This document shows, one piece after another, positions 22,108 through 43,563 of a stretch of 64,000 nucleotides of DNA. Positions within the stretch are counted from its first letter, which is position 1. Each line of letters begins with the position of its first letter. A program made the translations under genes and the position numbers. This stretch comes from Gordonia pseudamarae (GTDB taxonomy: Bacteria; Actinomycetota; Actinomycetes; Mycobacteriales; Mycobacteriaceae): the NCBI RefSeq assembly GCF_025273675.1, contig NZ_CP045809.1, forward strand, positions 310,001-374,000. Reading direction: 5' to 3'. The notes under the pieces were generated by a model that ran no database searches, had not been told where the DNA came from, and worked only from the letters and a program-made list of their open reading frames with translations.

Positions 22108-22326
22108 CTACGCCGGGACGCCGCCGATCGCGATGACGAAGACGAGGGTGATGGCGATGAGCGCGAGCACCATGCCGAAGACGATGACGTCGCCGATGAG
22201 CGTCGACGTGTCGGATGTGGATCGGCGTTGTGGTGTGGCCTGCTGTGTCATGGCCTGTTGTGTCATGGACTGTTGTGTCATGGCCTGTTGTGTCATGGCC
22301 TGTTGTGTCATGGCCTGCTGTGTCAT
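22108..22326 (-). CDS. Small membrane protein with MTQQA pentapeptide repeats
   Basis: 72 residues. Six copies of Met-Thr-Gln-Gln-Ala (one has Ser) are encoded by a 15-bp tandem repeat at about 22240-22326, followed by a polar linker and one transmembrane helix (VIVFGMVLALIAITLVFVIA). The start at 22326 is supported by a GAGGGG site eight bases upstream. Every repeat carries its own in-frame ATG, so copy changes keep both frame and a start. No known family; orientation or partner is unknown. Confidence 0.6.
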   Translation of the reverse strand: MTQQAMTQQAMTQQAMTQQSMTQQAMTQQATPQRRSTSDTSTLIGDVIVFGMVLALIAITLVFVIAIGGVPA

Positions 22327-22465
22327 GGTCTGACCCCTCGCGTTGTGGACGACACTATTGCACAACGAACTCGATATTTGACCAAGCAAATTTCGGGTGG
22401 GGTCCGGGACTGTGCTGGTCACGGGGTTTTCGGATTCTCCGGACCGGATGTTTGCGGCGGCCGGA

Positions 22466-24234: not shown

Positions 24235-24387
24235 GTTCAGCCTGACCGCAAAGGGGGACAGGCCCGGTCGGCACGGGTAAATGGGCCGGTGAAGGCCTAT
24301 TTCCACGCAGCCTGCGCCGAATCCCGCGCCGTGTCCGCACCGAGATCGGGGGATACATCGCGGTCACCGCGTGCTAGCTTTCTGTCC

Positions 24388-24492
24388 ATGACGAGCCGTA
24401 GCCACCCCACCCGCGATGTCACCGCAGTGACCGTCGCCCCGGGCTGTCGGCTGCCGCTGGTTCGTCCGCTGTGTTGTTGTCGAATGCACTGA
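24388..24492 (+). CDS. Leaderless polycysteine leader peptide (uORF)
   Basis: A 34-residue open frame beginning MTSRSHPTRDVT and ending Leu-Cys-Cys-Cys-Arg-Met-His. A TAGCTT -10 element (24374-24379) lies exactly seven bases before the ATG, the spacing of leaderless actinobacterial transcripts, and no ribosome-binding site is present. Leaderless uORFs with consecutive Cys codons control sulfur genes in mycobacteria: ribosomes stall on the TGT TGT TGT run when cysteinyl-tRNA is low and this exposes the downstream start. The next gene here encodes a ROK regulator, after about 390 bases. The link to that gene is inferred. Confidence 0.75.
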   Translation: MTSRSHPTRDVTAVTVAPGCRLPLVRPLCCCRMH

Positions 24493-24881
24493 TCGTCTCG
24501 TCCGGGCGCGTGACTCCCACGCCCAGCCCGTCAGTACATCCGTCACCTACGGCACCCGCTCAACCGTGCGCACCCCCTCGGGTGAACATCGTCGTTGACC
24601 GTGCCGGGTGGCGCCTTCAGCAAGGACACCACAGCCATGACCGCAACCCTTGATCGTTCCGCTCTTGTTCCGTCCACCACCGACACCCTGACATCACCCT
24701 TCACTCCGCTGCCCCGCACGCCGCAGCGGACCCGGCCCCTCGCCTACGGATCGAGTCCGGCGCGTCCGCGTTCCGCCGCGCCCCGCAATGCGGGACAATC
24801 GAGCTCACCCGTGCGGCGCGCACTCGCCGACGCGGCGGTTCCGGGAAGGGGGCAGGCCAGATTCACATCGCCACGCCGCAG
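24493..24881 (+). other. Transcribed spacer between the Cys leader and the ROK gene
   Basis: About 390 bases that may act as an attenuator or encode the N-terminus of the regulator. An ATG at 24634 opens a frame of Thr/Pro/Arg-rich sequence reaching VPGRGQ near 24854. Just after this the ROK frame reads IHIATPQLQLPSKPAALVL, but that frame has no start codon before TTG 24882. The two pieces may be one protein split by a frame change near 24855. Confidence 0.4.
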
Positions 24882-26024
24882 TTGCAGCTCCCCAGCAAAC
24901 CGGCCGCGCTCGTGCTGCGTGCGGCGCGCCTGTCGGGTCCGGTGTTCCGTGACGACGCCGCCGCGCAGACCGGGCTGTCGATCTCCACGGTCAACCGGCA
25001 GGTCGGTGCCCTGCTCAAGACCGGTCTGATCCGTGAGCGCGCCGACCTCGCGCCCGCCGGAGCCATCGGGCGTCCCCGACTGCCGTTCGAACTGAACGTC
25101 ACCGACTTCCTGACCGTCGGTATCCACATCGGCTACAAGGTCACCGCGATCACCACCTACGATCTGCTGCACCGGGTCGTCGGCGCCATTCAGATCGCCA
25201 CTCCGATCGCCGAGAACCCCGAGCAGACCCTGCAGGCCATCGGTGCCAGCGCCAGGCGTTTCGTCGGCCGCTGGGCCGGGCGCCGCGTGTTGTGGGCCGG
25301 TGTCGCGATGGGTGGTCGGGTCGGTGCCGGCGGCGTCGTCGATCACCCGCGTCTGGGGTGGGAAGCCGCACCCGTCGGCCGGGTGATCGCCGAATCGCTC
25401 GGGCTGCCGGTCTCGGTGGCCTCACATGTGGAGGCGATGGCCGCGGCCGAACTCGTGGTCAACCCCGACGACAAGCGGTCCAGCTTCCTGTACTTCTATG
25501 CCCGCGAAATGGTGGGTATCGCGTTCAGCGTCGACGGCACCGTGCACACCCCGGCCGCCGGCCCGCCGGTGATCGGGCATTTCCCGGTCGGCGGCACCCG
25601 ACTGCTCGATCCGCAGCGCACCGGGCGCCTCGAAGACACCGCCAGCGACACCGGAATCGTCGATGCCGCCGTCGCGAACGGGCTGAATGTGCAGGACGTC
25701 GACCAGGTGCACGAGTTGGCCCGTGGCGGTGACGCCACCGCCCGCGCGCTGCTCGAAGAACGCGCCGAGGTGCTGGGCCGGACCGTCGCGCTGATCGCCG
25801 ACATCTTCAACCCCGACCACATCATTCTCGGTGGGCAGGCGTTCACCGACTATCCGGCGACGTTGCCGACCCTGGCCAAGGCGGTCCGCGAGACATCCGT
25901 CGCCGAACGCCGTGACGTGCGGGTATCCCGGTCGGGCACAACGGTTCAGCAGCAGGCCGCCGGTGCGGTCTCGCTCGACGCGATCTACACCGACCCCCTT
26001 GAGGCGGTCGCCCTCACCGCCTGA
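24882..26024 (+). CDS. ROK family transcriptional regulator
   Basis: 380 residues counted from TTG 24882. An N-terminal helix-turn-helix (DDAAAQTGLSISTVNRQVGALLKTGL) precedes a ROK sugar-kinase-like domain with WAGVAMGGRV, DHPRLGWE and FNPDHIILGG. The zinc-binding CxCGxxGC motif of true ROK kinases is missing, as in the mycobacterial Rv0485 type. The true N-terminus is uncertain: similar sequence continues upstream in this frame, while an ATG-started piece lies in another frame. A polycysteine leader peptide upstream suggests cysteine-linked control. Confidence 0.82.
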   Translation: MQLPSKPAALVLRAARLSGPVFRDDAAAQTGLSISTVNRQVGALLKTGLIRERADLAPAGAIGRPRLPFELNVTDFLTVGIHIGYKVTAITTYDLLHRVVGAIQIATPIAENPEQTLQAIGASARRFVGRWAGRRVLWAGVAMGGRVGAGGVVDHPRLGWEAAPVGRVIAESLGLPVSVASHVEAMAAAELVVNPDDKRSSFLYFYAREMVGIAFSVDGTVHTPAAGPPVIGHFPVGGTRLLDPQRTGRLEDTASDTGIVDAAVANGLNVQDVDQVHELARGGDATARALLEERAEVLGRTVALIADIFNPDHIILGGQAFTDYPATLPTLAKAVRETSVAERRDVRVSRSGTTVQQQAAGAVSLDAIYTDPLEAVALTA

Positions 26025-29288: not shown

Positions 29289-30503
29289 TCAGGCGGCCGC
29301 GCCGTGGACGTGGGTTGCGGAATCGGTTGTGGTGTAGGGCTTCTGGTCGCGGAGCATGGCCCATTGAACGTTGAGACGACGGCGTGCGAGCGCGATGACT
29401 GCTTGCACGTGTGTCTTGCCCTCGCGGCGTTTGCGTTGGTAGTAGACCTGCGAGACGGGATCGCGGTGTACTGCAACCTGCGCGGAGAGATAACAGGAAC
29501 GCAGCAGTCGGCGGCTGTAGTGCCGCGGCCGGTGCAGGTTGCCGCTGATCCGGCCGGAGTCGCGGGGAACTGGTGCCAGGCCCGCGACGCCAGCGAGGCG
29601 GTCGACGGTGCCGAAGACGGTCATGTCGCCGCCGGTGGCGGCGAGGAACTCTGCGGCCAGGATGGTCCCGAAGCCGGGCATGCTGGTCAGGATTTCGGCG
29701 TGCGGGTGGCGGCGAAATCGGTCCTCGATCAGCGCTTCGGTGTCGCTGATTTCGCTGTTGAGGGTCATCACCTCCTTGGCCAACCGAGCCACGATCTGCG
29801 CGGCGACCTGCTGACCGCGGACCGTGACGTGCTGCTGATGCGCCGCGTCCATGGCGGTCTGCGCGACCGCGGCTGCATTGCGCACCTTGCGGTTACGCAA
29901 CCAGGCCTCCAGTCGTGCGTGGCCCATACGGCGAATCGAATCGGGGGTCTGGTAGCCGGTCAACAAGGTCAACCCGGCCTTGGAACTGCTGTAGTCGATG
30001 GCTCGCTCGAGCGCAGGGAAGAACTCCAGCAAGGTGGCGCGCATCCGGTTGATTGCACGGGTGCGGTCGGCGACCAGGTCTGCCCGGCGGGCGGTCAGGA
30101 TCCTGAGGTCGACCGCGATGTCGTCACCCGGGCGCAGGGGTTGCAGGTCGCGGCGCATCCGCGCCTGATCGGCGATGACTGCCGCATCCTTAGCGTCGGA
30201 CTTACCGTCACCTCGGTAGCCCTTCGATGCGTGGTGCACGGTCCTGCCGGGCAGATAAAGCAGCCTCTGTTGCGCGTCGATCAGCAAAGCGATCAGCAGT
30301 GCCCCGCCGCCGGCGTTGAGGTCCATCGCCCAGGTGACCTCGCCACCGGCGGCAATGTCGCCGACCGTGGCGATCAGGTCAGTCAAGGCGGGTTCGTCGT
30401 TGTCGATCCGCCGCGACAAAAGTTGCTCCCCATCGGTATCGATTACAACGCAGTGATGCGCGGTCTTACCGGCGTCGACACCGGCCCATACTTGTCTCGC
30501 CAT
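29289..30503 (-). CDS. IS110 family transposase (DEDD/RuvC type)
   Basis: 404 residues. The N-terminal DEDD domain begins VWAGVDAGKTAHHCVVIDTDG (first catalytic Asp) and includes KSDAKDAAVIADQARM with further acidic residues. The C-terminal transposase_20 domain has LTSMPGFGTILAAEFLAATG and the serine of PRDSGRISG. It is full length and apparently intact. The ATG is preceded by a GGAGGT site. IS110 recombinases act with a bridge RNA made from the element's non-coding end. Confidence 0.95.
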   Translation of the reverse strand: MARQVWAGVDAGKTAHHCVVIDTDGEQLLSRRIDNDEPALTDLIATVGDIAAGGEVTWAMDLNAGGGALLIALLIDAQQRLLYLPGRTVHHASKGYRGDGKSDAKDAAVIADQARMRRDLQPLRPGDDIAVDLRILTARRADLVADRTRAINRMRATLLEFFPALERAIDYSSSKAGLTLLTGYQTPDSIRRMGHARLEAWLRNRKVRNAAAVAQTAMDAAHQQHVTVRGQQVAAQIVARLAKEVMTLNSEISDTEALIEDRFRRHPHAEILTSMPGFGTILAAEFLAATGGDMTVFGTVDRLAGVAGLAPVPRDSGRISGNLHRPRHYSRRLLRSCYLSAQVAVHRDPVSQVYYQRKRREGKTHVQAVIALARRRLNVQWAMLRDQKPYTTTDSATHVHGAAA

Positions 30504-42525: not shown

Positions 42526-43563
42526 ATGATCACATCCACCACAACGGCCACCGAACCGAAAGCCTTCGACACCGTGGAGGAACTGTCCGCTGGGTTGGCC
42601 GACCAGGGGTATCTGATCGACGACGAGCTGGCTGTCGTCGTGCACCTGGCCACCCTGCTGGATCGGCCACTGCTGCTGGAAGGTCCGGCCGGTGTCGGAA
42701 AGACCGAACTGGCGAAGAGCTTGGCTGTCGCGGCCGGACGGGAACTGATCCGGCTGCAATGCTACGAGGGTCTGGACGAGGCGCGGGCCCTGTACGAGTG
42801 GGACTACGCCCGCCAACTGCTGCACGTGCAGATGCTGCGCGATCGGATCAGTGGTGAACTGGCCGTTGAGAGCAGTCTGGCCGGCGCATCGAAAGCTTTG
42901 GCCCGCACTGATGTCGGAGTGTACACCGAGGACTTTCTGGTGCCCCGGCCGCTGCTGGCGGCCATCACCTCGACCGTGCCGACCGTGCTGCTCGTCGATG
43001 AGATCGACCGCACCGACGAGGCGATGGAGGCGGTGATGCTCGAGGTGCTCGCCGAACGGCAGGTGACGGTGCCCGAACTGGGCACCTTTGTTGCCCGGTC
43101 CGTACCGTGGGTTATCTTGACCTCCAACGATACTCGCGAGCTCTCGCCCGCGCTGAAACGCCGGTGCCTGCACTTTCAGGTCGACTATCCCGACGCCGAA
43201 CGCGAATGCCGGATCGTCGCGGTGCGGGCGCCTGCCGTCGAGAAATCCGTCATCGAGCGGGTTGTCGGGCTCGCGCGGGACCTGCGGGAGTTGCCGTTGC
43301 GCAAGAGCCCATCGATCGCGGAGGTGATAGACGCGGCACGTGCCGCGGCCCATCTCGGAGACGGTGGACAGGACGCGACACACCGGCGGGTGTTGTTGTC
43401 ATTGTTGGTGAAGTTCGGCAGTGATCTCGATATCGCCCGTAGATCAATCGAAACTGCCGCGGTGCAGAGCAATGTGCAGAGCTCAGAGCCTGCCGGATCG
43501 GGTACCTCATCGGCGTTCGGGCTCGGCCGCGCGCGCAGTGCCGAACGGGCCCAACGCAGATGA
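42526..43563 (+). CDS. MoxR-type AAA+ ATPase
   Basis: 345 residues. Walker A LLLEGPAGVGKTELAKSLAV (about 45-64), Walker B TVLLVDEIDRTDEAMEAVML and sensor 1 ILTSNDTRELSPALKRRCLH define the MoxR/CoxD group. These ATPases work with VWA proteins to insert metals or mature enzymes such as methanol and CO dehydrogenases. The start has a GAGGAG site and the stop overlaps the next gene (ATGA). Beside mno, a role in activating that enzyme is likely but inferred. Confidence 0.9.
   Translation: MITSTTTATEPKAFDTVEELSAGLADQGYLIDDELAVVVHLATLLDRPLLLEGPAGVGKTELAKSLAVAAGRELIRLQCYEGLDEARALYEWDYARQLLHVQMLRDRISGELAVESSLAGASKALARTDVGVYTEDFLVPRPLLAAITSTVPTVLLVDEIDRTDEAMEAVMLEVLAERQVTVPELGTFVARSVPWVILTSNDTRELSPALKRRCLHFQVDYPDAERECRIVAVRAPAVEKSVIERVVGLARDLRELPLRKSPSIAEVIDAARAAAHLGDGGQDATHRRVLLSLLVKFGSDLDIARRSIETAAVQSNVQSSEPAGSGTSSAFGLGRARSAERAQRR

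Follow-up and report, generated by a model that had tools for sequence, protein, structure and literature searches.

The window, a stretch of 64,000 nucleotides from Gordonia pseudamarae (contig NZ_CP045809.1, positions 310,001 to 374,000), contains a short leader ORF upstream of a gene for a ROK-family regulator (Table 1). A gene for a FUSC-type membrane protein (PF13515, 22999-24234) lies immediately 5' of the leader. The same part of the window harbors a gene for a PIN-domain protein (PF01850, 21639-22034), possibly the toxin of a toxin-antitoxin pair, and a tandem array of 6.5 copies of a 15-base unit (22236-22332) within a predicted minus-strand ORF reading MTQQA repeats. Further downstream lies an IS110-family transposase gene (29289-30503), whose best plasmid matches come from Mycobacterium intracellulare, at 75% identity. 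The TGT Cys codons of the leader begin at 24445 (codon 20), 24472, 24475 and 24478. A previous sequence-only reading of this DNA had described a TAGCTT box exactly seven bases before an ATG without a ribosome-binding site, and direct reading agrees with this spacing, but the feature start it gave (24374) is one base too early. The same reading let the frame end in three TGT codons: the triplet is indeed present, but CGA ATG CAC TGA follow, and the C-terminus of the leader peptide reads CCCRMH. In the ROK ORF, the ROK domain (PF00480) scores 76.4 bits (cut-off 22.9) and the winged helix (PF13412) 22.8 bits (cut-off 21.9).

Table 1. Coordinates of the leader, the predicted helix and the ROK gene in the window.
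Feature	Position	Strand	Basis or remark
TAGCTT, -10-like box in TGCTAGCTT	24375..24380	+	Seven bases (TCTGTCC) upstream of leader ATG; direct reading
Leader ORF, 34 codons, leaderless-type start	24388..24492	+	ATG 24388-24390, TGA 24490-24492; MTSRSHPTRDVTAVTVAPGCRLPLVRPLCCCRMH
Conserved core of leader peptide, codons 10-29	24415..24474	+	pN/pS
Tandem Cys codons TGT TGT TGT (Cys29-31)	24472..24480	+	Direct reading and 37 Gordonia loci
Leader strand of predicted helix with ROK Shine-Dalgarno region	24470..24490	+	-16.5 kcal/mol in window
Partner strand with likely Shine-Dalgarno AAGGAC (24623-24628) of conserved ROK start	24612..24631	+	
Conserved ROK start ATG (MTATLD...)	24638..24640	+	Frame runs into ROK in 36/37 genus loci
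ROK-family regulator, winged helix and ROK domain, part found as ORF	24882..26024	+	PF00480, PF13412

The two motifs that define the leader are not rare in the window: TANNNT-N7-ATG has 8 matches against 3.67 expected, and TGYTGYTGY occurs 15 times when both strands are counted. Therefore, conservation rather than single-sequence statistics has to decide whether the leader is meaningful. The sole other copy of TGTTGTTGT, at 43391, was rejected as a second leader because it falls within a long ORF. Scanning 24240-24900 with a generic sigma-70 model yielded no promoter pair, the window had no Rfam match at gathering scores, and the leader had no NCBIfam family match at E values up to 10.

An orthologue of the ROK protein (68-97% identity) was present in all 36 same-genus genomes searched, and the leader precedes the orthologous ROK gene in all 37 genus loci read by sequence, the window locus included. 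The conservation ahead of ROK orthologues, which the sequence-only reading had proposed as a check, is thus borne out. A profile search returned one leader per genome in 59/59 genomes of the genus, and this conservation across loci and genomes rules out a chance ORF. The distance from the TANNNT box to the ATG is 7 nt in 34/37 loci (6 nt in two, 9 nt in one), and AGG, GGA and GAG are missing at ribosome-binding-site distance in 34 of the 37 leaders. The Cys codons, whose conservation the same reading required, are kept in part: Cys29 is present in every locus, always as TGT, and Cys30 in 36/37, but Cys31 in only 23/37, and one locus (L033) reads CRRR, with a single Cys within the cluster. Consequently, “CCC” is not the conserved unit. 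The CGAATG behind the Cys codons is invariant (37/37), and the ratio of TGT to TGC is 102:35 in the leaders compared to 21:77 in the ORFs of the window. As judged by comparison of sequences, the leader is a real, conserved, cysteine-coded element.

Besides the Cys codons, the peptide itself appears to be under selection. Across the 23/37 leaders with exactly 34 codons (253 pairs), pN/pS is 0.20 for codons 10-29, but 0.99 for codons 2-9; a test with 68 sequences gave 0.22 for the core. Gly19, Cys20, Arg21, Leu22, Pro23, Arg26 and Leu28 are constant over the 37 loci despite codon changes. The last codons of the leader, in turn, are constrained at the nucleotide level, as seen in the TGT preference and the invariant CGAATG. 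This substitution pattern indicates that codons 10-29 are selected as a peptide, beyond the needs of a codon counter, which was unexpected. A nascent-chain arrest peptide is a tentative, less likely alternative to the attenuator proposed below. The core would occupy the exit tunnel by the time the Cys codons enter the A site and would make the ribosome pause; the signal would perhaps be cysteine or a thiol metabolite, with the Cys codons marking the stall point instead of being counted. The contrast in pN/pS between the core and its adjoining codons fits such a role, as does the fact that the core finishes where the stall would be. A resemblance between the core and arrest peptides is presumed.

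Outside Gordonia, a 17-row profile matched 266/301 genomes of the family at E ≤ 1, many of them weakly. Class-wide, with up to 19 candidates scored per genome, at least 10/394 genomes matched at E ≤ 0.001, all of them in the same family. We examined 35 loci, namely 32 stretches picked for good scores and genus spread plus three weak own-genome loci. In 28 of the 35, covering 15 genera besides Gordonia, the leader stands upstream of a ROK relative encoded on the same strand, at 159-363 nt from the aligned part of that relative. The pattern VTYVTxALGxRLPxARxLCC is kept throughout these 15 genera, while Cys20 is replaced by Ser or Leu in 23/28 loci, and both observations argue for the arrest peptide. 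In three loci (L096, L098 and L101, from genera g30, g44 and g48) the leader precedes a solute-binding lipoprotein gene and a peptide-type permease instead, with PF00496 and PF00528 domain matches in the operon of L101. In one g42 genome (L233), the leader, ROK and a peptide ABC operon are arranged in a row. The four remaining loci, of which L076 and L103 mark a single place, are weak own-genome matches that do not represent leaders; the weak matches in the window's own genome, at 103,662, 3,271,247 and 231,182, are pieces of other frames with no ROK gene nearby. A search of 20 genomes added 17 loci: a Cys-rich leader is present in 13, doubtful in L121 and absent from L129-L131. In 3/20 of these genomes, ROK gave no match at E 1e-25. 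Two g24 genomes have ROK relatives of only 29-30% identity, with no leader seen there. In the literature searched, which covered few subscription papers, we found no report of such a leader outside mycobacteria, and relative to this literature the conserved core, its family-wide spread, the predicted pairing of the Cys codons with the ROK Shine-Dalgarno region and the ABC operon as a second target appear to be new.

The distribution of the leader also bears on the idea that it encodes a small protein acting in trans, for example via its Cys residues, and that its link to ROK is merely that of an operon. Selection at the peptide level would suit such a protein, and other Cys-rich small proteins occur in Mycobacterium (Shell et al. 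2015, PMC4633059). However, the N-terminal third evolves neutrally, the last codons are constrained as nucleotides and the place before ROK is maintained. Moreover, in three genera the same leader stands ahead of operons other than ROK, a pattern that a cis element would produce. We regard a function in trans as very improbable.

A similar arrangement occurs in Mycobacterium. Genus g50 is assigned to Mycobacterium, as its ROK protein (L124) shares 82-92% identity with the best 80 of 570 named Mycobacterium-type loci. In all of these best 80, a TANNNT box is followed by a short ORF with a Cys cluster (e.g. ACLCAAGACCCRALCRS) and then by ROK, although the script used here required both box and Cys cluster and could return nothing else. 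The start codon is GTG in 78 and ATG in two of these 80 leaders, and mshA lies downstream of ROK on the same strand in 80/80 (the mshA of L165 matches TIGR03449 with 660.9 bits). Likewise, two genomes of g27 and one each of g44 and g48 have an mshA gene that begins no more than about 5 kb from ROK, on the same strand. In g42 the distance is about 25 kb, and in the genome of the window mshA lies elsewhere. Synteny with mshA thus joins g27, g44 and g48 to Mycobacterium, but not the window genome. A second Gordonia ROK regulator (L038, G000:C1:442415-443500) is 42-44% identical to that of the window. In the ROK tree, this paralogue, located at 442 kb, has a long branch and clusters with the Mycobacterium ROK at 86/88, and no such leader was seen at the paralogous loci L038 and L040-L042. 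Among the best 80 of 570 loci, the Mycobacterium leaders hold 4-8 Cys per leader compared to 2-5 in Gordonia, yet they lack the peptide core. This speaks against the arrest peptide, since the core is not needed in Mycobacterium.

We take Rv0485 to be the ROK gene adjoining mshA. Cys-rich leaderless uORFs have been described before cysA2, Rv0485/Msmeg_0932 and nirA, with attenuation suggested (Shell et al. 2015, PMC4633059). The sequence-only reading had contrasted the regulator downstream of the leader with a biosynthetic enzyme; the uORF before Rv0485/Msmeg_0932 in that study means that a leader before a regulator is not new. From its proposed match to mycobacterial cysteine attenuation, the leaderless-type start, a conserved Cys cluster and the place before a ROK regulator can be retained, and CCC as the conserved feature has to be dropped.

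A tentative synthesis would unite both branches. Accordingly worded, these leaders might form a family of cysteine-sensing arrest peptides of this bacterial family, in which the VTYVTxALGxRLPxARxLCC chain amplifies stalling at only two or three Cys codons and thereby controls a ROK sulphur regulator, to which some genera would add a peptide ABC importer. Mycobacterium would have swapped the chain for a longer run of Cys codons. We consider this proposal rather unlikely.

For the ROK gene itself, a hint at function comes from Rhodococcus qingshengii IGTS8. Its ROK regulator peg5940 was 18-33-fold more abundant in a sulphate-starved culture on dibenzothiophene, as reported by proteomics (PMC8557817). 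By the numbering of that genome, peg5940 has TauD (peg5939) as its neighbor, and MshA (peg5948) is eight numbers away (PMC8557817). In G310, the ROK gene that bears the leader is flanked by a divergent TauD gene, with mshA about 5 kb further; from this gene order, peg5940 is probably the same gene. The match in gene order is incomplete, with a choline sulfatase next to TauD in IGTS8 (PMC8557817) and a short-chain dehydrogenase in G310. In the window, the frame from the conserved ROK ATG shuts after 130 aa and the ROK part continues in another frame, while in 36/37 genus loci one open frame stretches from the conserved MT... start across the ROK DNA-binding region. The break between 24638 and 24882 is either a sequencing or assembly error or real.

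As the reading we favor, with moderate confidence, we propose that the leader is a cysteine-responsive translation attenuator of the ROK regulator. As generally modeled, a translation attenuator works through an sORF whose end can sequester the Shine-Dalgarno sequence further downstream (PMC13236596). For the leader, we infer the transcript start, the stalling, the direction of regulation and the regulon as follows. Transcription would begin at the leader ATG or close to it, with ribosomes loading on the leader directly. With sufficient Cys-tRNA, they would pass the tandem UGU codons and depart, and the freed end of the leader would pair with the ROK Shine-Dalgarno region and repress ROK translation. 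Under a shortage of Cys-tRNA, a ribosome would stall at the UGU codons and cover the pairing strand, so that the ROK start opens. The ROK protein would then probably tune sulphur or thiol supply.

The predicted pairing was compared across the genus. In the window, the duplex is equally strong in a fraction of 0.225 of shuffles and is not significant for this sequence alone. Over the genus, leader tail and Shine-Dalgarno region gave a cognate mean of -20.04 kcal/mol compared to -17.78 (sd 0.43) after permutation. None of 5000 permutations reached the cognate mean, and within one clade of eight loci 19/5000 did so; these figures are inflated by shared ancestry, which the test ignores. With shuffled tails, the median fraction equally strong was 0.08, falling below 0.05 in 11/37 loci. 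The best ungapped register over 26 loci, counted by script, joins the Cys codons to AGGA and has 64% of cells paired versus 41.7% (sd 6.1) elsewhere; in a second clade of eight, this ungapped test missed a duplex seen with a bulge. The predicted accessibility of the Shine-Dalgarno sequence hardly differs between real (0.276) and shuffled leaders (0.309), being lower in 22/37. Swapped leaders gave 0.265, no difference, and co-evolving accessibility was not detected. Masking the leader as a stalled ribosome would do raised the predicted accessibility in 28/37 loci, from 0.276 to 0.389, and deleting the whole leader gave a value close to this (0.376). For the best 80 of 570 Mycobacterium loci, the duplex was no better than shuffles (median 0.28, below 0.05 in 3/80). 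Altogether, the Cys codons are predicted to be able to pair with the ROK Shine-Dalgarno region, above chance in the genus, weakly in the window and not in Mycobacterium.

The 90-204 nt between the leader stop and the conserved ROK start would also leave room for transcription attenuation, in which translation of the leader would either lead to termination ahead of ROK, at an intrinsic or Rho-dependent site, or allow read-through. A uORF-driven case has been reported for ilvB1 in a relative (PMC13236596). However, no terminator-like site of the intrinsic type was found in 24240-24900, Rho-dependent ends being invisible in sequence. A hairpin at about 24507-24527 lacks a U run and falls in an alignment gap relative to L003, L004 and L007; the DNA alignment behind this remark, used for the hairpin only, included one wrongly cut, unrelated row (L002). 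We consider this mechanism improbable.

Translation attenuation is favored by what is conserved in the genus, namely the leader in all loci and genomes, its Cys codons with their TGT bias, the CGAATG, the gene order, and the 7-nt spacing without a ribosome-binding site. Complementarity above shuffled sequence in the genus, the permutation and register results, and the gain upon masking point the same way. So do the gene order in the best 80 of 570 Mycobacterium loci and the ROK induction in R. qingshengii (PMC8557817). It is weakened by the small difference in accessibility, the 22.5% of shuffles that equal the window duplex, the null result in Mycobacterium, the broken ROK frame of the window and a peptide conserved beyond what codon counting needs.

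If the proposal is true, the cysteine supply would directly control a regulator, probably of sulphur or thiols, in a large actinobacterial family. The leaders before ROK offer a clean test of whether apparent codon counters use their amino-acid sequence, as at the equivalent place one branch has a conserved core and few Cys codons, whereas the other has many Cys and no core.

Several known systems are comparable. The uORFC-8-2 motif before cysS of Rhodobacterales likewise is a uORF with two tandem conserved Cys codons; in contrast to the window region, where no terminator was found, it ends in an intrinsic terminator, and it controls Cys-tRNA synthetase (PMC8632094). CysR and SsuR of Corynebacterium glutamicum are sulphur-linked ROK regulators from the same bacterial order, but, compared by description, the cysR and ssuR genes are leaderless in their own right and are described as having no uORF (PMC2580772). 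For polycysteine leaderless sORFs, regulation by cysteine was shown in M. smegmatis (Canestrari et al. 2020). These attenuators share with the Gordonia leader a cluster of Cys codons within a short ORF of leaderless type that precedes another gene, whereas for the Gordonia leader such regulation is predicted and the third Cys is not conserved in the genus. The closest parallels are the mycobacterial uORFs of Shell et al. 2015 (PMC4633059), which have a leaderless-type start and Cys codons near the 3' end. Compared to these, the Gordonia leader starts with ATG, carries a smaller number of Cys codons and contains a conserved core of 20 residues. The uORF of Rv0485/Msmeg_0932 precedes what is, by synteny, the probable mycobacterial counterpart of the ROK gene in the window.
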